The notes under the pieces are model-generated. The model did not search any database. It was not told the origin of the DNA and saw only the letters and a program-made list of their open reading frames with translations. Positions 11,940-54,617 of a stretch of 64,000 bases of DNA are shown piece by piece. Position 1 is the stretch's first letter; the number at the start of each line of letters is the position of its first letter. Location of the stretch: contig SXSC01000282.1 in the NCBI GenBank assembly GCA_005792355.1, positions 18,187 to 82,186 on the forward strand, given 5' to 3'. The position numbers were made by a program, and so were the translations under genes. Source of the stretch: Opitutaceae bacterium. GTDB taxonomy: Bacteria > Verrucomicrobiota > Verrucomicrobiia > Opitutales > Opitutaceae.

Positions 11940-11942
11940 GAT

Positions 11943-12716: not shown

Positions 12717-12728
12717 GGCGGCAAGGAG

Positions 12729-13292: not shown

Positions 13293-13400
13293 CCCACTCG
13301 AGCCGCAAGCGAAACGGACGCAGGTTCTGACCAGAGGGCGGGATAAGTTCACGCCGTCAGTATACAGGAAGTTCGGGCATGATAGTAGAGGTCTTTAGCC

Positions 13401-13416
13401 ACCTATAAAAATAGGT
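13401..13416. promoter_or_regulatory. Palindrome ACCTATAAAAATAGGT, candidate operator
   Basis: A perfect inverted repeat (7-2-7 layout) lies between divergent pilin cassette A and the GT-C/TPR gene. It shares CCTA-N6-TAGG with the sites at 7127 and 21727. A second GGCCCTA half-site follows at 13424. The 7-2-7 form is what NarL-type response regulators bind, and such a regulator is encoded at 20879-21577. Confidence 0.45.
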
Positions 13417-13493
13417 CCAAATGGCCCTAATTTCACCGGGTCGACTCCGACGCTGGCATTGCCCGGCGGAGAAAAATCTGCTGATTCGGCGGC

Positions 13494-15305: not shown

Positions 15306-15317
15306 ACCGGGCGCCGG

Positions 15318-18068: not shown

Positions 18069-18077
18069 AGACGGAAA

Positions 18078-19619: not shown

Positions 19620-19635
19620 GGCGGGCGGGAACGAA

Positions 19636-30589: not shown

Positions 30590-30915
30590 ACGGCGCGTTT
30601 ATCCCCCTCATTCGATTTTGATACCCAAAGACCCGTTGCCGACCGGCGACGGGTCTTGTTTTTCGATGGCGTAGGAGGGCGGCTCCGCCCGGCCGCCGGT
30701 GGCGAGATTTCCGCTGAAAACCGACGCGGCTGAATAAATAGTAAATGGTTTGTTCCTCCGGCAAATGCCCAACGTTTGATCTTGTAACATCGGGGTGGAT
30801 TCGGAAGCTTTTGCGTCCGGTTTGCGATGCGGCTTTTACAATCGACGTCTGGCTCACCTAGCAAAAACACCCTAGTCTTGCCCTCCCACATCTAAACGAG
30901 AGCCGAATACCACGC
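30590..30915. other. Gap between mini-protein gene and pilM, with terminator and palindrome
   Basis: Besides the terminator (30630) it contains a GGGCGG-CT-CCGCCC palindrome near 30676, probably a REP remnant. A TACAAT box (30837-30842) and a CCTAG...CCTAG direct repeat (30858, 30872) lie 40-80 bases before pilM. A promoter of the pilus operon must lie here, but no -35 at normal spacing is seen. No gene is recognised. Confidence 0.5.
30630..30663 (+). terminator. Strong rho-independent terminator
   Basis: An 11-bp stem (GACCCGTTGCC / GGCGACGGGTC, one T-G pair) with loop GACC is followed by TTGTTTTT. It closes the addB-addA-mini-protein unit. Confidence 0.88.
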
Positions 30916-31968
30916 ATGCTCTTTTCCAAGAAAGCCAAAGGGTTCTTCGTCGAATTCAACGATCATGCGGTGATGTTTGCCCGGACCTCGGGCTTGAGTG
31001 CGCCATTTGAGGTGGAAGACCTGAGGGAGTGTGTGCCGAACGACCCGGCGGCGCTGGCGGAGGCGATCCGGCAGATTCAGCCGAAAAAGAGTCCCAGTGG
31101 GTACCTGCATGCGACCGTCGGGATTTTTCCGGCGAAACGACTGGTGCGGCGGCATTCGTTGGAGCTGAAGCGAACGAAGGAACCCGGCTACTTTGCCGAA
31201 CTCTGCTCCCAGCAGTTCCGCATCGAGCAGGACAAGTATTCCATCGCCATCCTTAATGCGAACGACGGGTCAGATTACGACGTGGCCAAGAGCACGCAAA
31301 AGGATGTCATTTTTTGCGGACTGCCGACGGAAGACGTCAATGCGATCCAGGCGTCATTGCTCGAAAGCGGCATCTACCCCGAACGCCTGGAACTTGGCTC
31401 CATGGCGGTCCTCGGCGGGGTGGTCGACTACCTGGCGCAGGCCAAGTCGAAGAGCCCCACGCTCGTCCTCGAAATCGGCGCGGATGCGACGCACTCCTTC
31501 ATCCTGACCGCGGGTGGAGCGGAGGCCTCCCGGCCGATCCCGCAGGGCCTCGATGCGATGGTGCCCATCGTGCAAAAAGAACTCGGACTCAAGGATGAGG
31601 AGTCGGCGCGAAAGCTTTTTTATTCAAACACCTTCGATTTCACCGGCATGGGGCCTTTGCTGACGAAGCGGCTGCTCAAGGAACTGCAGTCTTCGATTGG
31701 TTTCTACGAAGTCCAGACGGGCCAGTCGGTCGGTCAGGTGCTGTGTACGCAGCTCTCGCCCAAGCTGGGCTGGCTCGACGCGGCCATCGCGACCTCCCTG
31801 GGTATTCCCAGCTTGAAGATCGACCCGGCCGCGTGGCTTCAGTCCCGCCAGATTTCCATCCCGGAGGTCTTGGTAAAGGTCACGCAGGACGTCCGTTGGC
31901 TCGGCATCCTCGGCCTCATGGCCCAATACAACGCTGTCCATGCTGTCCCTGCTGAAGAAAAAAAGTGA
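30916..31968 (+). CDS. pilM: Type IV pilus assembly protein PilM-like (actin-fold ATPase)
   Basis: The predicted protein has 350 residues. An actin/FtsA-like fold is suggested by 'LFSKKAKGFFVEFNDHAVMF' at the N-terminus and by 'SPTLVLEIGADATHSFILTAGG' (phosphate-binding-like) near residue 178. 'RLLKELQSSIGFYEVQTGQ' is a PilM-like helical segment. PilM is a cytoplasmic platform protein that binds the N-terminus of PilN. Gene order pilM-N-O-(P)-Q downstream with overlaps supports the call more than sequence identity does. It starts the operon after a terminator. Confidence 0.82.
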   Translation: MLFSKKAKGFFVEFNDHAVMFARTSGLSAPFEVEDLRECVPNDPAALAEAIRQIQPKKSPSGYLHATVGIFPAKRLVRRHSLELKRTKEPGYFAELCSQQFRIEQDKYSIAILNANDGSDYDVAKSTQKDVIFCGLPTEDVNAIQASLLESGIYPERLELGSMAVLGGVVDYLAQAKSKSPTLVLEIGADATHSFILTAGGAEASRPIPQGLDAMVPIVQKELGLKDEESARKLFYSNTFDFTGMGPLLTKRLLKELQSSIGFYEVQTGQSVGQVLCTQLSPKLGWLDAAIATSLGIPSLKIDPAAWLQSRQISIPEVLVKVTQDVRWLGILGLMAQYNAVHAVPAEEKK

Positions 31969-32569
31969 CGCCTCCGCCGCGCCGGCGTTGCCGAACTGGC
32001 ACCCGAATTTCCGCAATTATGAAAAATTGCCGGACATCAAGGTCGTGCGCACGGCGTTCTTCGTCAACGGCGCCGCGGTGTCGCTCGCGCTGGCGTTGGG
32101 GATTTTCTTTGGTTTCAAGGAATGGCAGCTGCGGGTCGTGAAGATCCAGATTGCCGAGGAACAGCGAAAGATTGATCGCGACAAGCGGCCAAGCGATCTG
32201 GCGATTGCGCAGTACAAAAAATTTCAGACTGAGGAAGCCCGCATCAACGAGGTGGCGGCGTTCGTCAAATCGAAGCAGTTGGTATCCGGCCTGTTGATGC
32301 GATTGGGTGAGACCCTGCCGAACAACATCGCGATCGACAACGTCGACCTGCGGGCTGACGGGATGGCGCTGCGCCTCTCCGTGCGGGGAGATGCCGTCAA
32401 GGCGAGCGGTTACGCGACGGCCTATCTGGACCAGCTCAAGGCGGACAAGGAACTTTCGAATTTTGGCGAGTTTACTTGGACGGGCCAGCCCACCCGCAAT
32501 CCGTCGACCGGCCGGATGGCGGTTGAATTCAGCCTGAAGTTGAAGCCGGCGACGGAGGTGAAAAAATAA
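31940..32569 (+). CDS. pilN: PilN-like inner-membrane pilus assembly protein
   Basis: This 209-residue protein has a cytoplasmic N-terminus containing 'PNWHPNFRNYEKLPDIKVVR', one transmembrane helix ('TAFFVNGAAVSLALALGIFFGF', about 36-57), then a coiled coil and a small ferredoxin-like domain. That is the PilN layout. It overlaps pilM by 29 bases and the next gene by one base (TAATG). In known systems PilN bridges PilM and PilO across the membrane. Confidence 0.78.
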   Translation: MLSLLKKKSDASAAPALPNWHPNFRNYEKLPDIKVVRTAFFVNGAAVSLALALGIFFGFKEWQLRVVKIQIAEEQRKIDRDKRPSDLAIAQYKKFQTEEARINEVAAFVKSKQLVSGLLMRLGETLPNNIAIDNVDLRADGMALRLSVRGDAVKASGYATAYLDQLKADKELSNFGEFTWTGQPTRNPSTGRMAVEFSLKLKPATEVKK

Positions 32570-33129
32570 TGACCAGCGCGGAACAAATTGCCCTGCTCAA
32601 GAAGAACCCGATCAGCGTGGGGTGTGGCGTGTTGAGCCTGCTGCTGGTGGCGGGGATCTATTTTCGGAGCGACGAAATCCCGACGGCTGAGGCTGAACTG
32701 GTGCAGAAGATCGCCGACGCGGAGCGTCTGGCCGTGAATCTCAAGTATTCTGAGAAACTGAAGGAACAGCTCGATGCCCTGGTGGTGGCCAATAAGGAAA
32801 TCGACTCGCGCATCATTCGGGCCAGCCAGGTCGGCACCAACACCCAGTACTTTTACAAACTTGAGAGCGACACCGGGGTAAAGCTCGTCGAGTTCCGCCC
32901 AATGACGTTCTCCGCCCCGGCCAAAGGGGCCAAGAACAGCTACACCCCGGTGGGTTTTGCCGTGTCGGTTCAGGGCAGCCTGCCCCAAGTTCTTGATTTT
33001 CTGCGCTTGCTCGAAGGGGGTGCGCACTACTCGCGGGTGTTGCTCGCGTCGGTCTCCGGCAACATGACGAACCGCAAGGCGCTGCTGACCCTGCAAATCA
33101 ACCACCTCGAACTTCTCGGTTTACCATGA
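32569..33129 (+). CDS. pilO: PilO-like inner-membrane pilus assembly protein
   Basis: The predicted protein has 186 residues. A short cytoplasmic tail precedes one helix ('PISVGCGVLSLLLVAGIYF', about 12-30). A periplasmic coiled coil ('AELVQKIADAERLAVNLKYSEKLKEQL') and a compact domain ending 'LLTLQINHLELLG' follow. Topology and gene order indicate PilO, the PilN partner. It overlaps both neighbours (TAATG upstream, ATGA downstream). Confidence 0.76.
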   Translation: MTSAEQIALLKKNPISVGCGVLSLLLVAGIYFRSDEIPTAEAELVQKIADAERLAVNLKYSEKLKEQLDALVVANKEIDSRIIRASQVGTNTQYFYKLESDTGVKLVEFRPMTFSAPAKGAKNSYTPVGFAVSVQGSLPQVLDFLRLLEGGAHYSRVLLASVSGNMTNRKALLTLQINHLELLGLP

Positions 33130-33674
33130 AGACGCTGCCCGTGTTCGTAGGAGTCCTTTTCTTGTCGGTCACTGTCCCGGGTTGGGGCGCGGCCGCGCGC
33201 ATCACCTCTGATTTGGTGCCACTGCAAAAACGGCAGTCGACCTTGGAGACCGCCGAAGGACTCGCGCGCCGCAAGGCCCCGGATCCGGTCCCGGCGGATA
33301 TTGCTTCGCCCTTCAATCCGGTCGATTTCGACAAACCGGATCCATCCGACGTCCCAGTGGTTTCGAAAACGACGGGACCCGGTGGGGCGGCGAGTGGTAC
33401 GCCGGCGGTTGCCCAGCCAGCGGCGCCGCCGACGGATCGCAAGATTCTTGAGATCCTGGCTGCACAGATTCTGCCCACGGGAATGATTCGGCGAGGAGCC
33501 TCGCCCGTGCTCACTTTCCCCAAAGGCATCAAGGCGATGGAAATCGGTACACGCTTCACAGCGGGGTATGAGAATCAGGATTACGAGCTCGAACTCGTGG
33601 CCATCGACCAAACTACTTTCACGCTTCGCTACCGCGGCGAGGACATCATCCGGCCCATCAAACCTGTCCGCTAA
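33126..33674 (+). CDS. Periplasmic protein in the PilP position
   Basis: This 182-residue protein has a signal peptide (MKTLPVFVGVLFLSVTVPGWGAAA). A Pro/Ala-rich stretch (about 55-105) leads to a small domain 'ILEILAAQILPTGMIRRGASPVLTFPKGIKAMEIGTRF...YELELVAIDQTTFTLRYRGEDI'. This last part resembles the beta-sandwich HR domain of PilP/GspC ('G.....Y.V..I....V.L...G.'), which docks on the secretin. No lipobox Cys is present, unlike classical PilP lipoproteins. The call rests largely on position between pilO and the secretin. Confidence 0.6.
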   Translation: MKTLPVFVGVLFLSVTVPGWGAAARITSDLVPLQKRQSTLETAEGLARRKAPDPVPADIASPFNPVDFDKPDPSDVPVVSKTTGPGGAASGTPAVAQPAAPPTDRKILEILAAQILPTGMIRRGASPVLTFPKGIKAMEIGTRFTAGYENQDYELELVAIDQTTFTLRYRGEDIIRPIKPVR

Positions 33675-33675
33675 C

Positions 33676-35607
33676 ATGAAACGCATGCCCCAGCCGATTT
33701 TCCGTTTTGCCCTGCTGGCACTCTTGCCAGTCGCTCCGATCGTAGCCCAGCAACCGGCGCCCGTCACTCCGGCCGTGGAAGCGCCGGCCGCCCCGGCGGT
33801 CGTTCCGACGACGCCCGCGCCGGCCGCCGACTCCCCGGCGAATGCGCCGGCCCTCGCCGACAAGCCGGCGTCCGAGGCCGCAGCCACCGCCGCGGCGAAG
33901 CCCGCCGCTACTGGTGCCGACGCCGCCTCCAAGGGCAAGGATGCGGTGGGCCGCGACACGCTCTCGGTTGATTTTCCGGATGAGGACATTCGCAACATCC
34001 TGCGCAACGTCTCGGACCTTTTTGAATTGAACATCATCATGCCCGATGCGCTGCAGGGCAAGACCACGATCAAGCTGCGCGATGTCACCTGGCGCCAGAT
34101 TTTCGAAAGCGTCCTCCAGCCGGTGAGCTACACCTACAAGGAAGAGGGGAACATCATCAAGATCATCAGCAACGAAAGCCTCGCGCAGGAACCCACCTCC
34201 ACGGACGTATTCTTGGTCAACTACGCCAAGGCCGCCGATATTTTGCCCACGGTCTCCTCGCTGGTCGACGCGGCGGCCGGTGGCAAGATCGTGGTCGATT
34301 CGCGCAGCAACAGCCTTATCATCACCGAGCGCCCGTCGCGGATGAACCGCATCCGCCCGATTATCGAGCAACTCGACCGGGCGACGGACCAGGTGATGAT
34401 CGAGTCGAAATTCATCGAGGTGACGGACAGCGATGTGAAAAACATCGGGGTGAACTGGTCTTCGCTCGACAAATTCCAGATTGCGGCCGGCGGCCTGGGC
34501 GGCGCATTCAATCAGAATCGCGGGCAGGTCGGCAGCGACGGTTTCAACAGCACCCGGGGCACGACGGGGGTCAGGAGTGACGGAACCACACGCACGGGCT
34601 CCACTGGCACCACGGACGGGAGCACGACGACGAACAACGCTTCGCAGAATTCCGGTTCGACCAATACGGGCAGCGTCTCGTCGACCAACGGTACCGCCGC
34701 CTCGACGTCGACGACCGGCACCAGTGGCGGTCTCACGAATACGACAACCATCCAAGGCTCGACTGGCGTCACCAGTACGGTGACCAACGGCACAAACAAT
34801 GCGGTGACCGACGGCGTCACCAATGCGTTTAACAACCTGGCCTCGCTGGTGAACAACGACGGCACGGCCCGCAGTCTCAATGCGGTCTTCTCCGCGAGCG
34901 AGTTCAAGTTGATCCTGAGCGCGCTGCAGACGCAGAGCCAGGTGAAGATCGTCTCCAATCCGACGATCGTCACGCTCAACAACACCGAGGCCGTCATCAA
35001 CGTGGGCCAGGAACGCCCCATTCCCCGCTACCAGTACAACCAGCAGACCGGCAATCTCGAGGTCAACGGCTTCGATTTCAAACCGATCGGCGTCATTCTC
35101 AAGGTCACGCCGCAGGTGAATTCGCGGGGTTTCATCAAGCTGATGGTGGCCCCGGAAGTGAGCCAGTCGCTGAACAACGTGATTTTCAACGGCAATGCGA
35201 TTCCGATCATCGACACCCGTAAAACGAACACCCAGGTGTCGCTGCGCGACGGCTTCACGATGGGCATTGGCGGCCTCCTCACGGCTTCTTCTTCCGATAG
35301 CAACAACAAGGTTCCCATTCTTGGCTCAATTCCCCTCTTGGGCCGGCTGTTCAAGAGCGATTCGAAGCGAGTCGAGTCGACCAATCTGATCATCTTCATC
35401 ACCGCGAAGACGATCAGCGCCGAGGGCGCCTCCATCGAGCAGGTGTTCGACTCCGAGCGCGTCCGCCAGCTCAACCTCCGCCGCGAGGATCTCCCCGGCC
35501 ACCGTGACGGCTCCAATCCGTTCATTGGCGAGTCAAATTCCAGCGAAAAACCGGCCGCCAAGAAATCGTTCTTCCAAACTGCCCCTAAGGCGGAGACGAA
35601 GAAATGA
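33676..35607 (+). CDS. pilQ: PilQ-like secretin
   Basis: The ATG at 33676 (MKRMPQPIFRFALLALLPVAPIVA) gives 643 residues with a signal peptide. An Ala/Pro-rich segment (to about residue 92) precedes an STN/N0-like domain ('LSVDFPDEDIRNILRNVSDLFELNIIM') and an N1-type domain ('VDSRSNSLIITERPSRMNRIRPIIEQLD'). Residues about 288-385 are a Ser/Thr/Gly/Asn-rich insertion. The secretin domain follows: 'QVKIVSNPTIVTLNN', 'GVILKVTPQVN', 'DGFTMGIGGLL' and 'VPILGSIPLLGRLFKS', ending in 'STNLIIFITAKTI'. It forms the outer-membrane channel. The last codon overlaps an ATG that opens into the giant gene. Confidence 0.9.
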   Translation: MKRMPQPIFRFALLALLPVAPIVAQQPAPVTPAVEAPAAPAVVPTTPAPAADSPANAPALADKPASEAAATAAAKPAATGADAASKGKDAVGRDTLSVDFPDEDIRNILRNVSDLFELNIIMPDALQGKTTIKLRDVTWRQIFESVLQPVSYTYKEEGNIIKIISNESLAQEPTSTDVFLVNYAKAADILPTVSSLVDAAAGGKIVVDSRSNSLIITERPSRMNRIRPIIEQLDRATDQVMIESKFIEVTDSDVKNIGVNWSSLDKFQIAAGGLGGAFNQNRGQVGSDGFNSTRGTTGVRSDGTTRTGSTGTTDGSTTTNNASQNSGSTNTGSVSSTNGTAASTSTTGTSGGLTNTTTIQGSTGVTSTVTNGTNNAVTDGVTNAFNNLASLVNNDGTARSLNAVFSASEFKLILSALQTQSQVKIVSNPTIVTLNNTEAVINVGQERPIPRYQYNQQTGNLEVNGFDFKPIGVILKVTPQVNSRGFIKLMVAPEVSQSLNNVIFNGNAIPIIDTRKTNTQVSLRDGFTMGIGGLLTASSSDSNNKVPILGSIPLLGRLFKSDSKRVESTNLIIFITAKTISAEGASIEQVFDSERVRQLNLRREDLPGHRDGSNPFIGESNSSEKPAAKKSFFQTAPKAETKK

Positions 35608-35637
35608 ACGTGCAACCGCTCCCAATCTTTTTCCCAC

Positions 35638-35643
35638 GAGGTG
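35638..35643 (+). promoter_or_regulatory. Ribosome binding site that fixes the giant-gene start
   Basis: GAGGTG lies 5 bases before the ATG at 35649, directly ahead of a good signal peptide. This favours 35649 over the ATG at 35604, which overlaps the secretin stop. Confidence 0.7.
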
Positions 35644-35648
35644 TCTCC

Positions 35649-38600
35649 ATGAAACCTTGGCAACAATTCCTTCTCGCCGCGACCATCGGGGTCCTCAGCG
35701 CCGCGTCCGCGTTGGCGGCACCCGTCATCAGCCCGACCGGCGTCAGCGCCGCCGCGTCTTCGGTCGCACCGAATACCTCGATTGTGATCTCAATCTCGGC
35801 ATCCAATGCCGGTGCGGCCACCCCGGCTGACGACCACGCTGCCGGTGGCTCCGTCACCGGCATAGTGACCTTCACCCATCGGGTGACCGGGGCGACGATC
35901 ACGACCGGTTCGGTGGCGTTCACCAGCGCGGCAGCGGTCGCCGGTGCCGGTGGCACCGGCACGTACACCCGGAATTTCACCATTCCCACCATCACGTCGC
36001 AGGCCGGGGTTTACGATGCCTCCGTCACGCTCTCCGCCGCCAGCGCTGGAACGGCTTCGGGTTCCTTCACATCCTCGAGTGTCCTGACCGTCACGGGCAC
36101 GCCCGATTTCGACCTCACTGGCCTGACGTATCCCGCCGGCACCGCCTATCGCGGGGGCGACGTCATCGCGATGACGGTCAGCTACACCAACCGCACCTCG
36201 ACCAACGGCTCGTACAATGTGCCGTACGTCTCGAGCACCAACAGCAATGCCTCGTATTTCCGGATCGAGATCATCCTTTCGAGCAACCCGACGTTCGGCG
36301 ATGCAGACGACTTCCTGCTGACCTCGCACGACATTACCGCGTCGTCGTCCGCGCCGCTGAACGCCAACAGCACGAGCACGACGATTAACTGGAACCAGCT
36401 CCTGCCGGGAAATTTCGCCGGCTCATACTATGTGATGGCGAAGATCGACACGAACTCGGGGGTCACGGAAACGGTGGAGGCCGATCTCACGGACAATGGT
36501 AACAACATCTACTACTCGCCCGACAACAATGCCGCGCGCATCACTCTGCTCCCGACGAATTTTCCCACGGTCTACCGGACCAGTGCGAGCGGCAATGCCT
36601 TCAGCGACAACCCCTCGGTTTCGAGCGATGGGCGCTACACCGCGTTTGCCTCCGATGCGACGAATCTCGGTACGGGCGACACCAACGGGGTGCGCGACAT
36701 TTTTCTCTACGACAACCAGACGGCGACCGTCCGGAAAATCAGCCTCTCGCAGCAAGGCAGCCAGACGAACAGTGCCTCCAACAACCCGGCGATTTCCGGC
36801 AACGGCACCTATGTCGCCTTCTCCTCGGATGCGACGAACCTGATTACGAGCGACACCAATGGCTTCAGCGAAATTTACGTGGTCAATGTCCTGACGGGTA
36901 CGCTGGCCCGCATGAGTCTGGCCAGCGACGGCACGCAGGCCAACGGCGGCAGTTTCAAGCCCGCGATCAGCACCACCGGGCGCTATGTGGCGTTTGAATC
37001 GACCGCGACCAACCTGATCGCCGCCGGCACGACGGCGGGCGTGACTCACATTTACCTGCGCGACCGCGACGTGAGTGGCAGCGGCACCTTCGATACCGCG
37101 GGCAACGTTTCGACGGTGTTGATCTCGCAGACCACGGGTGGCACGGCCGGCAACGGTAACAGCATTCAGGCCAGCATCAGCGGCGGCGGACAGTACGTCG
37201 CGTTCGCCTCCGATGCGACCAACCTGGGCGGGACGGTCACGTCGGGCATTCGCAACATCTACTTGCGCGATGTTACCACCCCTACCACGACGCTGGTCTC
37301 GTTCGACACCGGTGCCGGCGCGGCCGATGGCTCGAGCCGCGCTCCGTCGATCAATCAAAACAACGGTGTGACCACTGGCAACTTCGCCGACGGTCGCTAT
37401 ATTGCCTTCGGTTCGGTGGCGACCGATTTGATCGCGTCGGACACCAACGGCGTATCCGATATCTTCGTTTACGACCGGGTGGCCGCCACGATTTCCCGGG
37501 CCAGCGTCGATACGAACGGAGTGCAGGGCGGCGATCCCTCGGCCACCACGGCGCAGCAGCTTGGCAGCATCAACCCGAGCATCAGTTCCACCGGTCGCTA
37601 CCTGGCGTTTTCGTCGCTGGTGGCCAATTTCTCCCGCGGAGATTCGGTTGGCCAGTACCAAGGAAGCGGCGCGACCGCCACGGCCTCGCTGACCTTGGGC
37701 GCCGTCTCGTCGATCGCGGTTACCGCGAACGGCACTCTGTACAGCCAGTCGAGCGTGCCCTCAGTGATTATCTTTGGCGGGGGCGGCAGCGGAGCCACGG
37801 CCACCGCCACAGTGAGCGCCGCTGGCCTCGTCACAGGTATCGCCGTGACCGCCGGCGGCTCGGGTTACACGAGCGCGCCGTCCGTCGTGGTTGCGTCCGA
37901 TGCCAACACGTCGCTCGACGTTTTCGTCGCTGATCGTGATTCGGGTGGTACCGTCACCAGTGGCGCGGGCACCTTGGGCACCGGGGGCAATATCGCGACG
38001 ACGATGGCGAGTGTGAACCGCTTCGGCTATCAGACAGGCGGCCTGCTGGGTACGCCCAGCACCGCGGCTTCGGATGTTTATCCGGTCATCAGTGGCGACG
38101 GTCGCTGGGTCGCGTTTCCCTCGGATGCGGAAAACACCGGCGGCATCGTGCACAATGCAACTAATCGCTCTTCGCCGGACTCTAATACCTTCCGCGATGT
38201 GTTCTTGCACGACCGCCGGATCAATGCGCTCCCGTCCGCGACCACTCCGCCGAGCGTTTCGATCACAAGCCCGATCACGGGCACGACTTATCCCGTCAAC
38301 AGCGCGCTCACACTCGTCGGCAGCGCGAGTGCGCCGGCTGGCACGATTGCGAGCGTGCAGTTCTTCGTGAACGGCACGAGCCTCGCGACCGATACGACGT
38401 TCCCCTACAACGCGACCTGGACACCGACGGCGGTGGGCACGTTTGCGCTGAGCGCGCTGGTCACCGACTCGTTTGGCAATCAGGCCGTCTCGAGCAACGT
38501 AAACGTCACGATTTCGGCTGTGAGCCCGAACTCACCGACGGTCAGCATTTCGTCGCCGGCGGCGGGCGCCTCGCTGTTCGCCAACTCCGCGACGACGATT

Positions 38601-47600: not shown

Positions 47601-50600
47601 ACCACGATCACGGCCACGGCTGCGGCCTCCAACCCGGGCGCGACCATCGCGAGCGTGCAGTTCTTCGCCAACAACGTCTCGGTCGGCACCGATGTCACCG
47701 CGCCCTACACCATGGCGTGGACTCCGACGACCGCGGGTAACTTTGCCCTGACCGCCGTCGCCACCGACAGCAACGGCATCCAGACGACCTCGGCCGCGAT
47801 CAACGTGCGGGCGGGTTCGCCGCCCACGGTCACCATCACTCCCCTGGCTGGTAGTGTACTCGTCAATACATCGCAGACGCTCTCCGCCGCCGCCACTTCC
47901 CCCAACGGTACGATCGCGAGCGTCCAGTTCTTCGTGAACGGCGTTGCGCTCGGCGCCGCCGATGCGAGCTTCCCGTACACCGCGGTTTGGTCCCCCACCG
48001 CCGTCGGCAATTTCACCCTCACCGCCGTGGCGATCGACAGCGTCGGCAACAGCACGACCTCGGCTGCGGTCACCGGCGTGGTCACAAGCGGCACCGTGCC
48101 GACCGTCAGCATCACGGCGCCGGCCAATAATGCGGTTGTCGCGGTCGGGTCCTCTGCCTCCGTCACGGCCACCGCTGCGGCCACCACCGCCGGTGCCACC
48201 ATCGCCAATGTGCAATTCTTCGCCAATGGCGTGGCCGTCGGTGCGCCCGACACAACGTTTCCCTATGCTGCGACTTGGACGCCCACGGCGCGTGGCACCT
48301 ATAGCCTGACGGCTGTCGCCACCGATACCGCCGGCAACTTCACCACCAGTACGGCCGTGAGTGTGACAGTCGACACCAATGTGGCGCCGACCGTGACCGT
48401 GACGGCACCCGCGACCTTGGGAGTCGGCGTGGCGACGGCCGTGACCGCCACTGCGGCCGACAGCGACGGTACGATTGCCAGCGTGCAATTCTTCGCCAAT
48501 GGAACGGCGATTGGAACGCCCATCACCGCGGCGCCGTACACGATTAATTTTACCTCGGCGATCGCCGGCAGCATCGCGATTACCGCGAGGGCGACGGACG
48601 ATCTGGGGGCCGGCACCACCTCGGCGCCGGTGACCATTACCGTCTCGGCCGGAAATGCTCCGGCGGTGGCGATCTCTTCTCCGGGTTCCGGCTCCGCGAT
48701 CCCGGTCAACGTCGCCCAGAGTGTCACGGCGACGGCGACGGCGGCCACGGGTTCGATTGCCACCGTTGATTTCCGGGTGGTCACGGGTGGAATCACCACC
48801 GTGCTCGCGGCCGATACGACCTTCCCCTATGCGACCACGTGGACCCCGACGGCGGTTGGCGCTTACACTCTCACGGCCACGGCGACGGATTCCAACGGCA
48901 ACCAAGCCGTCGCTTCGTCCGTGATCACCGTGACGGCGACCGGCAACGCGGGACCCTCGGTGAGTATCTCCAGCCCGCTTGGTGGTGCGACGTACACGGC
49001 CGGCACCCCGGTGGTGCTCTTTGCCAACGCGAGCGACTCGAATGGCTCCGTCTCGAGCGTCCGCTTTTTGGTCGACGGACAAGTGGTTGGGGGGCTCCTC
49101 GCGAGTTCGCCTTATACTACCGTCTGGACTCCGTCGGCCGCCGCGACCTACGCGATTACCGCCATCGCGGTGGACAGCGACTTCAATGCGACCACCAGTG
49201 CGGCCATCAGCGTGACGATTTCCGCCGCGAGCGGAGTGGTTCCCACGGTTACCATCACGAACCCCTTGGCCGGGGCGGCGCTCACCACCCGTTCGACCGT
49301 TCCGATCGTCGCCGGCGTCTCCTCGGTGGCGGTCACCTCCGTCCAGTTCTTTGACAACGGCGCGCTGCTCGGCACCGACAACACTTCACCGTTCTCCTTC
49401 GACTGGACACCTTCGACCCCTGGAACCCACCGGCTCGTCGCCGTGGCCACGGCCGGTGCCAACATCGTCTCGTCTGCGCCTGTGGATATCGCCGTCACCG
49501 CGGCTACCAGCCCCGTTGCGCCCACCGTCGGTCTGACGTCACCGTCCGCTGGCGCCGTGGTGTCCATTGGAACCACACCTCCGGCCACCGTGACGCTGAC
49601 CGCCAATGCGTCCGACACCGATGGAACGATTGCGCGGGTCGACTTCTTGGTGAACGGCACGCAGGTGGGTTCGGACAGTGCTTTCCCCTATACTATTCCG
49701 TTCACCCCCACGTCAATCGGCTCGTATATCGTCACCGCGGTGGCGGTGGACAACGCCGGAAACGTGAATACGAGTGCCAGTGTCACGTTTACGACCATCG
49801 CGTCGAATGCCCCCACGGTGACGATAACCGGCCCGGCGGCCCTGGCCAGTCTTCCGGTCAATGTCGTCCAGCAGGTCGACGCGACGGTCGTGCCGGCGGC
49901 CAACAGAACGATTGTTAGCGTACAGTTCAAGGCCAATGGCGTTGATATTGGCGGACCGGATACGACGTTTCCGTACAGCGTCAATTGGACGCCCACGGCA
50001 CCAGGGGCGGTGACGCTCACGGCGGTCGCCACCGACGACAACTCCATTCCCGGAACTTCGAACGGTGTGGCGGTCACAGTTACGCCGGGCACGCCTCCGA
50101 CGGCCGCGCTCACGAGCCCATCTGCGGGAGCCAGTCTCACGGTGGGTGTTGCCACGACCCTTACCGCGACGGCGACGGCGGTGGCTCCGGCGACGATTTC
50201 GAGGGTGGAATTCCGCGTGAACGGAGTTTCGCAGGGAGTCGATACGACTTTCCCGTACAGTGTCTCGTACACTCCGGCCGCCGTGGGCATCGGTCTGCAA
50301 TTCACCGTGGTTGCGACCGACAGCTTGGGTAACACTTTCACCACTCCCGTTTCCGCGGTGAATGTCGTCTCGCAGCCCGGGCCGACCGTCTTGCTAACCG
50401 CCCCGTTGGGTGGGAGCACCATCGTCGTTGGAACACCGACAACTGTTACGGCGACCGCCGTACCGGTGGCGGCCGGCACGACCGTTACGAGTGTGCAATT
50501 CTTCGCGAATGGCGTCTCGATTGGCACGTCGGTGGTTACGCCATATTCGGTGAGCTGGCTGCCGACCACGGGCGGTGCCTTTGCCCTCACCGCCAGGGCC

Positions 50601-53600
50601 ACGGATAGCAACGGCACCTCAACGGTTTCAGCTGCCGTCAACGTCGCCGTCACCACCCCTCCCGCCATCGTGACCATCACGGGTCCAGCTGCCGGCGCGA
50701 CCCTCGCGGTCAACACGCCGCAGACCATCGCGGCCACAGCCACCACCACGACCGGTACTGTCACCAAGGTGGATTTCTTCGTGAATGGCGTGGCGCTCAC
50801 GTCGGACACCATCTTCCCCTTCAGCGCGGCCTGGACTCCGCTCACCCCCGGCATCTTTGCTCTGACGGCGAAGGCGACTGACAATTTTGGCACCGCCACA
50901 GATTCGGCGGTCACCACCGTGACGGTTGCCGGCGGCAATGTGCCTACGGTCGCAATTTCCACTCCGCTGTCCGGCAGTACCGTTACCGCTGGTACTCCGC
51001 AATCAGTCGTCGTCAACGCCGCTGCGGCCAACGGCACAATTTCCAGTGTCGAGTTGTTTGCCAACAACGTGACGCTCGGCAGCGACAGCACGTTCCCCTA
51101 CAATTTCACTTGGACGCCCGGCGGTCTCGGTGCGGTGTCGCTTACCGCTATCGCCACGGATTCGCAGGGCAATCGCTCGGTGAGTGTTCCGGTGAGTGTC
51201 ACGGTCGCCGGCATCAGCATTGGTGCGCCCGCGGTGTCGCTGACCGCTCCTGCCGCCGGAGCCTCGCTCCCGGTTGGAGTTGCCACGCTCATCACGGCCA
51301 CGGCCACCGACGCCGACGGTACGATTGCGCAGGTCGAGTTCTTCTCCAGTGGCGTCTCCCTCGGTGTCGATACGGTGTTCCCGTACAACTTCGCCTTCAC
51401 TCCTGGAGCCACGGGCAGCTATGTTCTCACGGCCCGTGCCACGGATAACGGTGGTAATGTTGTGACGAGTGCGGCGGTAAACGTCTCCGTTAGTGGCGGC
51501 ACGGCCCCGAGTGTTGCCATTTCAGCTCCGGCCAGCGGTGCGGTGCTGGGGGTGAACGCTCCGCAGACCATCACAGCAACGGCCACTTCCTCGACCGGCT
51601 TCATCGCGAGCGTGCAATTCTTCCTTAACGGCGCTCCGCTCTCCACCGACACGACCTTCCCGTATTCCGCACCGTGGACCCCTGGTGCCATCGGATCCTA
51701 CACCCTGACTGCGCGGGCCACCGACAACCTCGGCAACATCACCGACTCCGCCGTTGTGGCTGTCACGGTCGGGGCCTCTGCCGCGCCGACGGTGTCCCTC
51801 ACCAATCCGGCTACGGGCAGTTCCTACACGGTCGGCACACCGCTGACGGTGGCCGCGAACGCCGCCGATTCCGACGGCTCCATCGCCGAGGTGCGGTTCT
51901 TCGTCAATGGCGTGCCACTCGGCGCCGCCGACACGGTCTCACCCTACAGTGTCGTGTGGACCGCCAACTCCGTGGGTGTCTATTCGCTCTCCGCGCAGGC
52001 GACCGATAACAATGGCAACGTCACGACCAGTTCGGCCATCACCGTCACGATCGGGGCCAACGCCGCGCCGACCATCGCGCTGACCAGTCCCGCGACAGGC
52101 AGCTATAGCCTTGGCAATCTCGTGCTCGTCGCGGCCAATGCCAACGACTCCGATGGTTCCATCGCCAGCGTCCAGTTCTTCGCCAACGGGCTCGCGATCG
52201 GCACGACGACCTCGGCGCCGTTTAATGTCAGCTGGCGTCCGACTCTCGCCGGTACTTTTGCGATCACGGCGCAAGCGACCGACAATGTGGGCAATGTGGC
52301 CACCGCCGGGCCGGTAAACGTGGGTATCACCGCAACCGCAGCTCCGGCCGTTACGATTACCAATCCCGTCGTGGGCACGCTCTACGGCGTCGGTAATGCG
52401 ATTCCGTTCGCCGCCGCCCCGAGCGGTGGCAATGGCCCGATCGCGCAGGTGCAGTTCTTCGTGAATGGTACGAGTCTCGGCACTCCCGACAATGTTTCGC
52501 CGTATTCGGCCATCTGGACGCCGAATGCGCCAGGGCTCTACAGTCTGCTGGCCATCGCGACCGACAGCGCGGGGCTCTCGTCATCGAGCTCAGCCACGAT
52601 GAACATCACCATCAGCGGCAACGCGGCGCCGACGGTGGCGATCACGAGCCCGCAGAGCGGCACCAGTGTCAATGGCGGTGCGACCGTCAACCTTACCGCT
52701 ATGGCCGCGGATGCCGATGGCACGGTTGCGTCGGTGCGCTTTATCGCCAACGGCAACGTGGTCGGTACGGCGACGGCCATCCCCTACAACACCGCCTGGG
52801 TGCCGAGTGCCGCCGGTTCCTATTCGGTCACCGCTCAAGCGCTGGACAGTTCGGGCAACGTCACCAATTCCTCGCCGATTACGGTCTCGGTTGTCGCCAA
52901 TCGTGCGCCCACAGTTTCTCTCACGGCGCCTGGCAATGGATCAACCGCGCGGGTCGGTGGCTCCACCGTGCTCTCGGCCACGGCAAACGATGCTGATGGG
53001 ACAATTGCCAGTGTGCAGTTCTTCGCCAACGGGCTCGCCATTGGCCCCGCCGATACAACCGCACCTTACACGACCACCTGGACTCCGGGAGCCGAGGGCA
53101 TCTACCGGATTTCCGCGACGGCGCTCGACAACTCCGGTGCCGCCACCGTTTCCAGCGAGATTACGGTGCTGGCCATTATCCCCGGGGCCAAGGGTGCCGA
53201 CATCACCTATACCGGAAACTACGCCGGACTCGCCGAAACCGGACGATTCGCCGCGATTAGTGTCCGCGGCAACAACGCCACCTTCATCGGATTCTCCACC
53301 ACGGCCCCCAACCGCGTCTATTTCTTCTCCGGCATGCCGGTCGAGGTCACGGGCGGATTCTCGCAATTTGATACGCTGGGCCGGCCGCTGATCTCGGGTA
53401 CGGCCACGGATACCGGTGCAACGGGCACGCTCGACGGCGGGCGGGTCACATTCATTGGCACCGTCGGATTTGGCGCCGGAACGGGTGTCGCCTCCGGCTA
53501 CTACACTGGCGGCCTCAGTGGCCGGCCGGACAGCACCTTCGTCGCCATCGTCGGGCCCGATGGCTCGATTGCAGTCTATGCGGCAGACGGCACCTTCCGC

Positions 53601-54590
53601 GATGCCGGTGCCAGCACCCTTACCGCGTCGGGCAGCTTTAGCGTCACGACCCAGTCCGGTGTTCGCTTCATCGGCCGCGCCGATCCGGCCACCGGTTTCC
53701 TCACCGGTTCGATGACCGGCGGACTCGGGGGGACTTTTTCGGCCGCCGTCTCGTCCGGAGTTTCGTTTAGCGACGGCTTCCTGAAGAATCTGTCAACTCG
53801 CGGACAAGTTGGAGCGGGCGGCGACATTCTCATCGCCGGATTTGTGGTGGCGGGCGACGTGCCGAAACAGGTGCTCATCCGTGCGATCGGTCCGTCGCTC
53901 TCGGCCTTTGGTGTCACGGGTGCGCTGGCGGATCCGATCCTTCAGCTCTTCACCGGCAACTCGCTCTCGAACACCAATGACAACTGGGGCGGCGCCACCG
54001 CCATCAGCACCGCGGCTAATCTGGTCGGAGCCTTCGCTCTTGCCCCGACGAGTCTCGATGCGGTGATTCTCGCCACGTTGCCACCGGGTTCCTACACGGC
54101 TCAAGTCAGCGGTGCCGGTGGTTCGACCGGTGTGGCGCTGGTGGAAATCTACGACGCCGACACCCTCCAGCCGTTCTCGACGCAAAAGGTGACCAACGTC
54201 GCCACGCGTGGCGTGGTCGGCACGGGCCAGGGCCAGCTCATCGCGGGCTTCGTGGTTACAGGCAACACCTCCAAGAAGGTCCTCATCCGCGCCGTCGGTC
54301 CCACTCTCGGAGCGGCGCCATTCAGTGTCCCGGGCGTACTGGCGGATCCGCAGCTGCGGCTGCTGCAAGGCGCGAGCACCGTGGTGCGTGAAAACGACAA
54401 TTGGGAAATGGGCAACGATCGGGCCCTCATCATCGAGGCGTCCGCCAAGGTGGGCGCCTTCCCGCTGGCCGTCGGTGCCAAAGATGCCGCCATCCTCCTC
54501 AACCTGCCGCCGGGTTCCTACAGCGCACAGGTCACCGGTCCGGGTACGACCACCGGTGTCGCGCTCATTGAGGTCTACGAGGTGCCGTAA
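35649..54590 (+). CDS. Giant secreted Ig-repeat protein with two beta-propellers
   Basis: This 6,313-residue protein begins with signal peptide MKPWQQFLLAATIGVLSAAS, cut near residue 24. Layout by hand: N-domain (25-150), CARDB-like domain (about 151-304), TolB/PD40-type propeller (304-860, repeats of 'DGRYVAF.S.ATNL..GD.NG..DIF..D'), 24 Ig-like repeats of about 93 residues (863-3105), a second N-domain, CARDB-like domain and propeller (3106-3871), 21 more Ig-like repeats (3871-5842), a 200-residue domain, and two C-terminal repeats of about 135 residues ('ILIAGFVV.G...K.VLIRA.GP.L'). The Ig units fit Big_9 (PF17957)-type domains: 'PTVSITSP', 'GTIASVQFFANG', 'PYTATWTPT', 'AVATDNLGN'. I noticed no Cys. 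No anchor motif is seen. It is probably an extracellular adhesin or sheath. It directly follows pilQ in the same operon. Confidence 0.9.
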   Translation: MKPWQQFLLAATIGVLSAASALAAPVISPTGVSAAASSVAPNTSIVISISASNAGAATPADDHAAGGSVTGIVTFTHRVTGATITTGSVAFTSAAAVAGAGGTGTYTRNFTIPTITSQAGVYDASVTLSAASAGTASGSFTSSSVLTVTGTPDFDLTGLTYPAGTAYRGGDVIAMTVSYTNRTSTNGSYNVPYVSSTNSNASYFRIEIILSSNPTFGDADDFLLTSHDITASSSAPLNANSTSTTINWNQLLPGNFAGSYYVMAKIDTNSGVTETVEADLTDNGNNIYYSPDNNAARITLLPTNFPTVYRTSASGNAFSDNPSVSSDGRYTAFASDATNLGTGDTNGVRDIFLYDNQTATVRKISLSQQGSQTNSASNNPAISGNGTYVAFSSDATNLITSDTNGFSEIYVVNVLTGTLARMSLASDGTQANGGSFKPAISTTGRYVAFESTATNLIAAGTTAGVTHIYLRDRDVSGSGTFDTAGNVSTVLISQTTGGTAGNGNSIQASISGGGQYVAFASDATNLGGTVTSGIRNIYLRDVTTPTTTLVSFDTGAGAADGSSRAPSINQNNGVTTGNFADGRYIAFGSVATDLIASDTNGVSDIFVYDRVAATISRASVDTNGVQGGDPSATTAQQLGSINPSISSTGRYLAFSSLVANFSRGDSVGQYQGSGATATASLTLGAVSSIAVTANGTLYSQSSVPSVIIFGGGGSGATATATVSAAGLVTGIAVTAGGSGYTSAPSVVVASDANTSLDVFVADRDSGGTVTSGAGTLGTGGNIATTMASVNRFGYQTGGLLGTPSTAASDVYPVISGDGRWVAFPSDAENTGGIVHNATNRSSPDSNTFRDVFLHDRRINALPSATTPPSVSITSPITGTTYPVNSALTLVGSASAPAGTIASVQFFVNGTSLATDTTFPYNATWTPTAVGTFALSALVTDSFGNQAVSSNVNVTISAVSPNSPTVSISSPAAGASLFANSATTISATAADSTTDTTGTIASVAFYATNVLIGTDTTFPYSVAFTPTATGTYTLTAVATDNGGNQTTSAGVNVSVTNLTAPAISITSPTPVQINSATTITATATSGGSIASVQFLANGTLLGTTTASPFTFSWTPTAAGTYTLTAVATDNLGSQTTSAGISVVVSAGTSPVVSISSPSAGTISVNNTQTITATATDSTDGTPVTVQFFVNGLSLGPDTVFPYTASWTPTTAGIFSLLAVATDNLGNRTTSSAVSMTVSSGTAPSGVAISSPSAGAAIANGSSNTITATATANSGTIVSVQFFANGVTLGSDTTFPYTATFTPVANGSHSLTAMATDTLGNQTTSAAVAVTVAANASPSFTSLTPANGASVGVGSANTVTAVVADTDGTIASVQFFVNGTSIGTDATSPYTVTWTPTLAGSYSLTALVTDNLGATTTSSTNTVTVTGGNQPTVTINAPTTGSSWAVNSTATVTATATAVTGTIASVQFFANSVSLGTDTVFPYTASWLPTATGTYSLTALTTDTAGNQATSSAVSVTVAANQVPAFTSLTPANGASVGVGSSNTVTAVVTDPDGTVASVQFFANGVSLGTDSSSPYTASWVPTIAGSYTITAAVTDNLGVTTTSSTNTVTVTGGNAPTATVTAPTTGSSIAVNSSTTLTATATAATGTIASVQFLANSVAISTDTTFPYSATFSPTANGTYAITALATDTAGNQATSSAVSVTVASNASPTVSITAPLTGATVGVGSSNTIAATAADTDGSIASVQFLINGTALSTDTTSPYTATWTPTIRGSYSLTTIATDNLGATTTSSTISVTVTGGNEPSVAISSPTTGSALAVNSSTTVTATATPVTGTIASVQFFANGGSLGTDTTFPYTATFAPTANGTYSLTAVATDTAGNQATSSAASVTVAANVSPSFTSLTPANLASVGVGSANTVTAVVADTDGTIASVQFLVNGVSLGTDPSSPYTVTWTPTLAGSYSLTAVVTDNLGATTTSSTNTITVTGGNAPTVSAPTTGSSLAVNSSAAVTATATAATGTIASVQFFANGVSLGAADTSFPYTATFTPTANGTYSLTATATDTAGNSATSSATTVTVAANQSPAVTIGAPLTGATVGVGSSNTFSATATDADGTIVSVQFLANGVAVGTDTTFPYSVTWTPTVAGAISLTAIATDNLGATTTSATISVTVSGGNAPSVSVTSPSAGAAVANGSTNTLTATATAATGTIASVQFFANGVSLGTDTTFPYTATWTPTANGTISLTALAIDTAGNQATSSAVSATVAANASPSFTSLTPAGGASVGVGSVNTVTAVVADTDGTIASVQFLVNGVSIGTDTTSAYTATWTPTLAGSYSLTAVVTDNLGATTTSSTNTVTVTGGNAPTVAIASPATGSTILANSTQTIVVSATAVTGTITQVEFFDNGTSLGADVTYPYNASWTPTATGTHVLTAIATDSAGNRATSASVSITVATISTTFPTVSISSPAAGAAVVVGFPTTISATAADSDGTISFVEFFANGSSVGVDTTGLYRGSFTPLSAGDYVLTAVAVDNNGNRTTSATVTVSASNAGAPSVSISSPTTGDTYTVGSAISLSSSAALGSGVVVGVEYFANGVALTSIQTPSVGQGGIPFYNFTWTPAAAGTYVFTAAASDAAGNRTISAPITVTVTNIAAPTVAVTSPAAAATLAVNTTRTLTATAASAAGSISQVEFFVNGASVGVDTTFPYTGTWTPTSPGTYALRAVARDNLGNLTTSAAISVSVTSGTAPTVSVTAPTAASNVSVNAATTLTATATANTGTIASVQFFANGLSQGTDTVFPYTASWTPTALGTYLLTALATDTVGNQTTSAAITVSVIDPAAAPSVSVTSPTAGTTVTGATTITASATPIGAATIASVQFFASGVSLGTDATSPYSVAWTPTTAGSVTLTAVATDSLGLQSTSASVAVTVTLGTPPTVSITAPTSGSTVNRSTAVAVTANAADADGTIASVQFFADGTAIGTDTVAPYSVTWTPTANGSVVLTARATDNQGNVVTSSSVTVSVATGQPPVVTITAPLDLTPVNNTQATTLTATATDADGSIASVRFVANGVTVGTALTSPYSVSWTPGVVGNFNVTAVATDNLGNTTTSASIKIYSAAAPSISVSGASVSPAGAKPGESIAVAVSVVNASFTNVVDNVSNNIVPTATPANQWAVGGTATFNLTFTHAVTGDTFTRNGITGSVSTAVPGKDGTGTVTVNTTVPTSTTQAGGYKISATLVSATGSGVTVGTPASFSSSLAALTVTGKPDLVITALTYPAGTAYKGGDIIAMTVSYNNPVTSPGGVNNVPYVPSINGDGSFARIEVILSSNPTFGDSDDFLLTSHDLSSTILANGTNTTISWNQLLPGNYVGSFYVMARIDSLNRVSETVDNDLSLNGNNTWFNETDAARISILPANFPTVYWASPGSNGFSDNPAISGSGRYVAFASDSTTLGTGDSNTTRDIFLFDSQTSLVRRINLSLQGQQANGPSNQPAISSDGGFVAFSSEATNLVLGDTNGFSDIFVVNTLTGAISRESVDSSLGQANGSNFKPAISSDGRYVVFESTATNLVATPVVASGVTHIYRRDRTTGTTVLVSQTSGGVIANGNSLQATVSGDGQFVAFASDATNLVAGDVNGVRDIFLRDVTGGSTIRVSVSSGGVAGNGASRAPSINRNPGVATDGRYIAFGSEATNLVAGDSNGVSDIFVYDRVAATTVRVSVSSAGVEATDPSAAGLKLGSINPSISSTGRYVTFASLANNLATGDADGRVATPAVDSNSAVDVFVHDRDFDADGIFDETGPTDRSTTLVSVNRFGYQTLSLLGTPSTSASDIYPVISDDGRWVALPSDAENTAGLVHGATNRTSPDSNAFRDIFLHDRRINAVGAPGTPPTVTITSPGTGTSVLVNNAVPVTASATTTNGVVASVQFFVNGVSVGTDTTFPYGTTWTPAATGSYTLTALVTDSFGNLGVSSNIALTVNAAPSVGITAPAAGALLSVNVATTITATAAASNPGATIASVQFFANNVSVGTDVTAPYTMAWTPTTAGNFALTAVATDSNGIQTTSAAINVRAGSPPTVTITPLAGSVLVNTSQTLSAAATSPNGTIASVQFFVNGVALGAADASFPYTAVWSPTAVGNFTLTAVAIDSVGNSTTSAAVTGVVTSGTVPTVSITAPANNAVVAVGSSASVTATAAATTAGATIANVQFFANGVAVGAPDTTFPYAATWTPTARGTYSLTAVATDTAGNFTTSTAVSVTVDTNVAPTVTVTAPATLGVGVATAVTATAADSDGTIASVQFFANGTAIGTPITAAPYTINFTSAIAGSIAITARATDDLGAGTTSAPVTITVSAGNAPAVAISSPGSGSAIPVNVAQSVTATATAATGSIATVDFRVVTGGITTVLAADTTFPYATTWTPTAVGAYTLTATATDSNGNQAVASSVITVTATGNAGPSVSISSPLGGATYTAGTPVVLFANASDSNGSVSSVRFLVDGQVVGGLLASSPYTTVWTPSAAATYAITAIAVDSDFNATTSAAISVTISAASGVVPTVTITNPLAGAALTTRSTVPIVAGVSSVAVTSVQFFDNGALLGTDNTSPFSFDWTPSTPGTHRLVAVATAGANIVSSAPVDIAVTAATSPVAPTVGLTSPSAGAVVSIGTTPPATVTLTANASDTDGTIARVDFLVNGTQVGSDSAFPYTIPFTPTSIGSYIVTAVAVDNAGNVNTSASVTFTTIASNAPTVTITGPAALASLPVNVVQQVDATVVPAANRTIVSVQFKANGVDIGGPDTTFPYSVNWTPTAPGAVTLTAVATDDNSIPGTSNGVAVTVTPGTPPTAALTSPSAGASLTVGVATTLTATATAVAPATISRVEFRVNGVSQGVDTTFPYSVSYTPAAVGIGLQFTVVATDSLGNTFTTPVSAVNVVSQPGPTVLLTAPLGGSTIVVGTPTTVTATAVPVAAGTTVTSVQFFANGVSIGTSVVTPYSVSWLPTTGGAFALTARATDSNGTSTVSAAVNVAVTTPPAIVTITGPAAGATLAVNTPQTIAATATTTTGTVTKVDFFVNGVALTSDTIFPFSAAWTPLTPGIFALTAKATDNFGTATDSAVTTVTVAGGNVPTVAISTPLSGSTVTAGTPQSVVVNAAAANGTISSVELFANNVTLGSDSTFPYNFTWTPGGLGAVSLTAIATDSQGNRSVSVPVSVTVAGISIGAPAVSLTAPAAGASLPVGVATLITATATDADGTIAQVEFFSSGVSLGVDTVFPYNFAFTPGATGSYVLTARATDNGGNVVTSAAVNVSVSGGTAPSVAISAPASGAVLGVNAPQTITATATSSTGFIASVQFFLNGAPLSTDTTFPYSAPWTPGAIGSYTLTARATDNLGNITDSAVVAVTVGASAAPTVSLTNPATGSSYTVGTPLTVAANAADSDGSIAEVRFFVNGVPLGAADTVSPYSVVWTANSVGVYSLSAQATDNNGNVTTSSAITVTIGANAAPTIALTSPATGSYSLGNLVLVAANANDSDGSIASVQFFANGLAIGTTTSAPFNVSWRPTLAGTFAITAQATDNVGNVATAGPVNVGITATAAPAVTITNPVVGTLYGVGNAIPFAAAPSGGNGPIAQVQFFVNGTSLGTPDNVSPYSAIWTPNAPGLYSLLAIATDSAGLSSSSSATMNITISGNAAPTVAITSPQSGTSVNGGATVNLTAMAADADGTVASVRFIANGNVVGTATAIPYNTAWVPSAAGSYSVTAQALDSSGNVTNSSPITVSVVANRAPTVSLTAPGNGSTARVGGSTVLSATANDADGTIASVQFFANGLAIGPADTTAPYTTTWTPGAEGIYRISATALDNSGAATVSSEITVLAIIPGAKGADITYTGNYAGLAETGRFAAISVRGNNATFIGFSTTAPNRVYFFSGMPVEVTGGFSQFDTLGRPLISGTATDTGATGTLDGGRVTFIGTVGFGAGTGVASGYYTGGLSGRPDSTFVAIVGPDGSIAVYAADGTFRDAGASTLTASGSFSVTTQSGVRFIGRADPATGFLTGSMTGGLGGTFSAAVSSGVSFSDGFLKNLSTRGQVGAGGDILIAGFVVAGDVPKQVLIRAIGPSLSAFGVTGALADPILQLFTGNSLSNTNDNWGGATAISTAANLVGAFALAPTSLDAVILATLPPGSYTAQVSGAGGSTGVALVEIYDADTLQPFSTQKVTNVATRGVVGTGQGQLIAGFVVTGNTSKKVLIRAVGPTLGAAPFSVPGVLADPQLRLLQGASTVVRENDNWEMGNDRALIIEASAKVGAFPLAVGAKDAAILLNLPPGSYSAQVTGPGTTTGVALIEVYEVP
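39651..42995 (+). repeat. Amplified 557-bp two-domain repeat inside the giant gene
   Basis: Six consecutive units start near 39651, 40209, 40767, 41323, 41879 and 42438. Each encodes one 'SPSFTSLTPANGASVGVGS'-type Ig domain followed by one 'PTVTINAPTTGSSWAVNS'-type domain. The spacing (about 557 bp) and high similarity set them apart from the more diverged flanking repeats. The last half-unit (from 42718) is diverged. Confidence 0.85.
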
Positions 54591-54617
54591 CCCGAATCCC
54601 TCCAGGCCGGGTTTTTC
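54589..54617 (+). terminator. Probable terminator of the pilus/giant-protein operon
   Basis: AACCCG (54589) pairs with CGGGTT (54608) around a 13-base loop, followed by TTTC. It overlaps the end of the stop codon and touches the convergent gene's stop. The stem is short, so the call is moderate. Confidence 0.45.

Follow-up and report, generated by a model that had tools for sequence, protein, structure and literature searches.

A large gene for a secreted protein was found directly behind the secretin gene pilQ of a pilMNOPQ operon in an Opitutaceae draft genome, and this linkage to PilQ holds across the genus, in much of Opitutaceae and in some further families of Opitutia. The window, that is, the whole stretch of 64,000 nt that was analysed, lies on contig C243; the draft genome measures 8.4 Mb, is split into 416 contigs and has a completeness of 98 and a contamination of 5. 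The position behind pilQ is called the slot here. In the window it holds a gene for 6,313 residues; in relatives it is filled with proteins of different size and domain content, or is empty.

The operon consists of five contiguous genes on the + strand with the secretin last, an order kept in relatives: pilM (30916..31968), pilN (31940..32569), pilO (32569..33129), a pilP-like gene (33126..33674) and pilQ (33676..35607). The earlier note had described these genes as overlapping or touching, and the ORF coordinates agree, with overlaps of 29 nt (pilM/pilN), 1 nt (pilN/pilO) and 4 nt (pilO/pilP) and a 1-nt gap between pilP and pilQ. A strong terminator-like hairpin with a 13-bp stem and a T tail (30628..30657, +; consensus scan only) separates pilM from the UvrD-like helicase/nuclease gene before it, and a separate transcription unit likely starts there. 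PilM gave a significant yet weak match to TIGR01175 (4.1e-12, under the cut-off of that model) and is kept with pilNOPQ in relatives. No HMM family match was obtained for PilN, PilO or PilP, whose identities rest on order, size and topology: position and a single TM segment for pilN, position for pilO, and a signal peptide with a Pro-rich linker for the pilP-like gene. The identification of the pilQ product as a secretin is firm. It matched PF00263 above cut-off (2.6e-45), PF03958 and STN, as well as PilQ and GspD structures, and scored 254.8 bits with TIGR02515, just below the cut-off of 284, and 229.6 bits with the GspD model. A type II secretion system, which would have a GspL/M/C organisation in place of a separate PilM, was rejected because the PilQ model scored higher than the GspD model and the PilM-like gene is a separate one; the operon belongs to the T4aP type. 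The pilMNOPQ operon is co-transcribed in most T4aP bacteria (PMC6060248). The window shares the gene order, the overlaps and the secretin type of that classical operon, but adds a terminal gene for a giant surface protein. A long Ser/Thr/Asn/Gly-rich low-complexity loop precedes the secretin domain of PilQ (residues about 265-405; window 34470-34890) and varies among relatives. This loop was alike in slot-filled and slot-empty loci (p = 0.5; few measurable loci).

The giant gene has a reading frame that is open from 35604 and overlaps the stop codon of pilQ. The start that yields a signal peptide is the ATG at 35649, preceded by ACGAGGTG and located 41 nt past pilQ, so the ATG over the secretin stop and the true start with GAGGTG reported in the earlier note were both recovered. 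The 41-nt junction (35608..35648, +) carries this Shine-Dalgarno-like GAGGTG, and a consensus scan of its + strand gave no terminator- or promoter-like site. Because the spacing is tight and no terminator lies between, the giant gene is predicted to be cotranscribed with pilMNOPQ. Its assignment as the last gene of the pilMNOPQ unit, made in the earlier note, is supported by position, spacing and the conserved linkage to PilQ.

The slot gene of the window (35649..54590, +; defined by its ORF and a repeat HMM) encodes a secreted modular protein of 6,313 aa, all parts of which are given here on the + strand. A Sec signal peptide seen in the sequence (MKPWQQFLLAATIGVLSAASALA; 35649..35717) is followed by N-module 1, an all-beta, CARDB/Ig-like region found only in the slot gene within its own genome (35721..36548), and by a first beta-propeller (36549..38249). 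This propeller matched PD40 of Pfam and is TolB-like; the AF2 model of the N-module and propeller, of low confidence (pLDDT 64), was used only as support for a TolB-like propeller, through a fold match to TolB (2w8b/2ojh). Ig-like (Big_7) domains 1-24 come next (38250..44960, repeat HMM), then N-module 2, a duplicate recognized by similarity to the first (44973..45848), a second PD40 propeller recognized by Pfam and by similarity to the first (45849..47258), and Ig-like domains 25-45 (47271..53168, repeat HMM). The protein closes with an all-beta pre-tail domain (53184..53768; AF2 pLDDT 89), the marker of Ig-type slot genes, and a C-terminal tail of two tandem jelly-roll-like domains (53787..54587), also modelled at pLDDT 89. 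By an iterated repeat HMM the Ig domains number exactly 45, of which 24 fall in residues 868-3104 and 21 in residues 3875-5840, a copy number that may be affected by assembly in a MAG; Pfam Big_7 and PD40 both match the protein. The two copies of N-module plus propeller are 60% identical, and the gene is therefore an internal duplication. A counterpart ORF of 6,357 aa with the same duplicated N-module is present in an independently assembled genome (G023, PilQ 81% identical). Thus each number given in the earlier note for length, signal peptide, two propellers and 45 Ig-like domains proved right on checking.

The conservation of the slot was examined by locating orthologous pilQ genes in relatives and reading the downstream DNA. 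In all 21 genus genomes with readable downstream sequence (21/21, the window genome counted), the next gene after pilQ was a large secreted gene on the same strand, and in three other genera of the family (G029, G032, G034) Ig forms of 1,285-1,459 aa were found. Named genomes were scanned and yielded 80 Opitutia loci, in part from the same genomes; downstream sequence was resolvable in 73 (window counted). The slot was filled in 50/73 loci, with 27 PD40+Ig, 18 Ig-only and 5 RCC1 forms typed by HMM, and was empty in 23/73; these counts include genes cut by contig ends when at least 450 aa were seen. The earlier note had proposed to check synteny of pilQ with an Ig-repeat gene of >3,000 residues; a large same-strand gene is present in every readable congener and in 50 of the 73 loci. 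The distance from the pilQ stop to the slot-gene start was -4 to +62 nt in 45/48 measurable cases, with a median of 41.5. Moreover, about 711 other ORFs of the same loci held no separate multi-Ig gene; the sole background ORF with at least two Ig domains was the rear portion of a slot gene that is interrupted. These results indicate that the pairing of pilQ with the giant gene is not due to chance. That interrupted gene (L152, 11726-19486) is split into two ORFs, one of 1,385 aa and a second from 15848, and may be either a pseudogene or an assembly error.

Downstream of the giant gene, the window has a convergent gene for a CPBP-type protein (54617..55228, -; identified by sequence motifs, not by HMM), which is a conserved downstream flank, and a polyprenyl synthetase gene (55349..56425, +; PF00348), which lies directly behind pilQ in many empty-slot loci. 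Empty-slot loci commonly have the CPBP gene, the polyprenyl synthetase gene or both directly behind pilQ, just as these genes follow the giant gene in the window. Since empty loci commonly rejoin the downstream flank of the giant gene, the slot gene is an optional operon-terminal cassette in a conserved block.

The contents of the slot vary widely. Slot genes read to a stop encode about 1,100 to 6,357 aa, and slot genes other than the giant carry 4-27 Ig domains where these were counted, some being cut by contig ends; the extreme size of the giant is lineage-specific. Four kinds of content were recognized, PD40+Ig, Ig only, RCC1+CARDB and YCF48+Ig. An RCC1 propeller, with CARDB where detected, occupies the slot in G027, L176, L180 and L184 and in a genome of another family (G044), and a YCF48-like propeller with Ig-like domains occupies it in yet another family (G056). 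Short slot forms have no propeller. On the PilQ tree, content shows 12 or more changes and presence 5 or more, both being far more clustered than in shuffles. The occurrence of three propeller families at one operon position means either that secreted propellers are favoured there or that the machine needs one.

The pre-tail domain allowed the co-occurrence of the Ig-type slot gene with PilQ to be followed. It is essentially single-copy in its own genome (one other match, E 7e-4) and normally occurs once per genome, three very weak matches aside; a plasmid search for transfer of this domain gave no match. Among genus genomes with PilQ, 22/23 had the pre-tail, the exception (G005) being cut by a contig end, while an intact pre-tail was found in 0/3 of those lacking pilM and pilQ (G006, G009 and G019, the last only 70% complete). 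G016, whose contig ends after pilM, was left out. The co-occurrence gave a Fisher p of 0.0015, uncorrected for kinship. A pre-tail without PilQ was seen only as a stub in G009 and as a weak match elsewhere in G033. PilQ often occurs without a pre-tail gene and hardly the reverse, which is the pattern of a machine-dependent accessory.

Slot gene and PilQ were lost together in two distinct events. Compared with G014, G009 aligns in two blocks and lacks a single 10.3-kb piece between them, which took out pilM-Q together with the first 83% of the slot gene and left a 404-aa stub. At the locus itself (L204, G009:C37, compared with L121), the 10.3-kb deletion is clean; it begins shortly before pilM and ends within the slot gene, with the minor pilins and pilT kept. 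In G006 the loss is IS-associated and begins inside pilM, of which only the start is left with transposase-like sequence next to it. The locus concerned (L214, G006:C48) has pilM cut after about 50 codons beside a transposase-like ORF, and the minor pilins and pilN-Q are missing. Both G006 and G009 kept pilT. A shared deletion proves linkage, not dependence, and co-loss is expected for any neighbour.

The tail behaves differently from the pre-tail. It gave 103 matching segments genome-wide in the window genome (roughly 80 proteins), and the PilQ-less G006 and G009 still had 33 and 39 matches, where close relatives had 50 and 53. As a group, proteins with this tail are therefore not PilQ-dependent, and a PilQ-independent surface route probably exists for them. 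Export of all tail-bearing proteins by PilQ was rejected because the tail family is still abundant after the loss of pilM-Q; the tail as a pilus-specific signal was likewise rejected, since it persists without pilM-Q and since the RCC1 forms and the G029 form are without the usual tail. Export of the giant by PilQ, as suggested in the earlier note, is unproven, given that its tail is common to many proteins and still abundant in genomes without pilM-Q. The modelled fold of the tail weakly matched the tandem collagen-binding domains of ColG (5iku, TM about 0.2-0.3) and suggests binding rather than pilus docking. The tail as a known solved domain was rejected, there being no PDB sequence match, and the fold match is a lead only.

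The window genome has a pilB-pilT-pilB-pilC cluster on C21, in which PilT scored 459.5 bits against a cut-off of 319.1 and the PilB/GspE and PilC/GspF homologues were strong, some being just under cut-off. Three minor-pilin triplets lie on the opposite strand, about 15-26 kb from the giant gene (9405-20731, -): triplet 1 (18078..20731), with PilV-, PilW- and PilX-like members and DUF7305; triplet 2 (15318..18068), with PilV-, PilW- and PilX-like members; and triplet 3 (9405..13352), with prepilin-like N-termini and a PilX-like member of 844 aa. The triplets are consecutive, and prepilin N-termini occur in all three. Their PilX-like members, of 597, 543 and 844 aa, are unusually large, and two carry DUF7305.

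PilY1 is located at the pilus tip, is needed for pilus priming or adhesion, and is usually, not universally, encoded in an operon with minor pilins. No PilY1 was present beside any of the three triplets in the window; M. xanthus likewise carries three such clusters, and a PilY1 accompanies each of them (PMC13190605). The PilY1 family PF05567 was absent from the scanned pieces of the giant and from its own genome. It was also absent from 57 relatives and present in 1/388 Verrucomicrobiota genomes, in a search in which the control genomes gave no match and that one genome shows that the model does detect the family. This lone match lies on an 8.7-kb contig (L217, G102:C32) with genes unlike those of the group, and is probably binning contamination. 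The giant as a PilY1 was rejected because it has no PF05567 and sits after pilQ rather than among minor pilins. The earlier note had suggested a PilY1-like tip factor as one possibility. This stands in so far as no canonical PilY1 fills the tip role; it fails in that the sequence of the giant is not that of a PilY1, the propellers lie in the N-terminal part and the short forms lack them altogether.

We favour the reading that the slot protein is an optional operon-terminal T4aP accessory, an adhesin displayed by the pilus or by PilQ, to which we give not quite an even chance. Operon position, linkage, turnover, co-occurrence with PilQ, the T4aP motor and minor pilins, and the lack of a canonical PilY1 support it. 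The slot protein may work like PilY1, and we infer its transcription, export route, tip location and adhesion in the following way. Sec would carry the protein to the periplasm, in keeping with the signal peptide, and the pilus machine would display it outside the cell as an adhesin. It would ride on the pilus through the PilQ pore, as PilY1 does on the minor-pilin tip complex, with a propeller or Ig head engaging minor pilins or a surface. The Ig array would form a long stalk, reaching roughly 0.2 micrometre at most if each of its 45 domains spans about 4 nm, and the part that binds a surface or glycan would be the jelly-roll tail. Against the accessory reading, 23/73 loci keep pilMNOPQ without a slot gene, which is not a core part; because of these empty slots the pilus machine presumably works without it. 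What counts most against the accessory reading is that the tail family outlives the loss of PilM-Q. A further proposal, conceivable but doubtful, is that the pilQ end is a dedicated display slot for interchangeable giant surface proteins, that is, a non-homologous replacement of PilY1 with at least three propeller families (TolB/PD40, RCC1 and YCF48) and a reach set by Ig copy number.

The abundance of the tail in PilQ-less genomes, its 103 segments in the window genome and a jelly-roll fold that suggests binding rather than pilus docking would also fit a surface adhesin that is independent of PilQ and only co-regulated with the pilus. Such a protein would cross the outer membrane by the route of the other tail proteins, and its operon placement would make adhesin and pilus together on meeting a surface. 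However, the slot is kept in the RCC1 forms and the G029 form without the usual tail, the pre-tail and N-modules are specific to the slot, and the swapping of unrelated propellers at one operon position suggests a partner there; we consider a PilQ-independent adhesin rather unlikely. Another reading is a permissive site behind pilQ that repeatedly gains large surface-protein genes with no functional tie. Empty slots are common, presence changed 5 or more times across the PilQ tree and such genomes hold many giant repeat genes, but mere hitch-hiking is improbable when the gene is always on the same strand at tight spacing, none is found elsewhere in the same loci, tree clustering is strong, all 21 readable genus genomes have it, and the pre-tail family without PilQ is limited to the G009 stub and the weak G033 match.

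The slot protein could also stay inside the cell envelope. Being encoded with the alignment subcomplex PilMNOP and PilQ, and having a Sec signal peptide with no evidence of an outer-membrane crossing signal, it might be a periplasmic or outer-membrane scaffold that anchors or spaces the PilQ channel in a TsaP- or FimV-like role and is not displayed. However, its size of up to 45 Ig domains and the variation in copy number better fit an extracellular stalk, no LysM or other peptidoglycan-binding Pfam domain was found in the scanned pieces of the giant, and the gene is dispensable in 23/73 loci. We consider a scaffold improbable as well.

The favoured T4aP accessory was compared with known systems. 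The PilY1/PilC tip adhesins (PF05567; PMC13190605, PMC7541494) are likewise Sec-secreted beta-propeller proteins genetically tied to T4aP, with an N-terminal region that varies by lineage; minor-pilin sets, too, lie in the same window as the giant. However, the defining propeller of PilY1 is C-terminal, whereas that of the slot genes is N-terminal and PD40/TolB-like, RCC1, YCF48-like or absent, and the slot gene is without PF05567, follows pilQ and encodes proteins that can reach 6,357 aa and dozens of Ig domains. Amuc_1098 of Akkermansia, in the same phylum, is a PilQ-type secretin proposed for type IV pili (PMC4960237), but the Amuc_1098 and Amuc_1101 equivalog models scored far below cut-off on the window and no giant Ig gene is described there. 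BAP of Acinetobacter (PMC4647330) also has long Ig-like arrays with domains of 80-110 aa, whereas the giant has propellers, a jelly-roll tail, no RTX domain detected and linkage to a pilus secretin. The C-terminal 496 aa of the giant gave no family match. Giant RTX adhesins secreted by type I systems have C-terminal RTX repeats and a type I signal and no Sec signal peptide. The giant as such an adhesin was rejected, given its Sec signal peptide and the lack of a C-terminal family match. The earlier note knew of no described pairing of this kind, and indeed the open-licence literature yielded no pilQ-linked giant Ig or propeller gene, no other pilQ-linked adhesin and no giant Verrucomicrobial protein, though absence there is no proof.

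Nearly all of the 388 sampled Verrucomicrobiota genomes lack canonical PilY1, though relatives of the window genome encode T4aP machines, and the giant gene that closes the secretin operon, conserved yet swappable, is a concrete candidate for what these pili carry. If displayed on the pilus, the giant would rank with the largest known proteins associated with pili and would suggest that unrelated propellers can replace tip adhesins wholesale.

The tandem jelly-roll tail, which matched nothing in Pfam or NCBIfam and of which relatives have tens of copies, seems to be a Verrucomicrobial surface-protein domain not yet catalogued. Further giant surface-protein genes may exist in the window genome away from pilQ, where tail-bearing open frames of 7,887 and 4,837 aa were observed at G000:C25 near 22374 and at C333 near 13529-14512.
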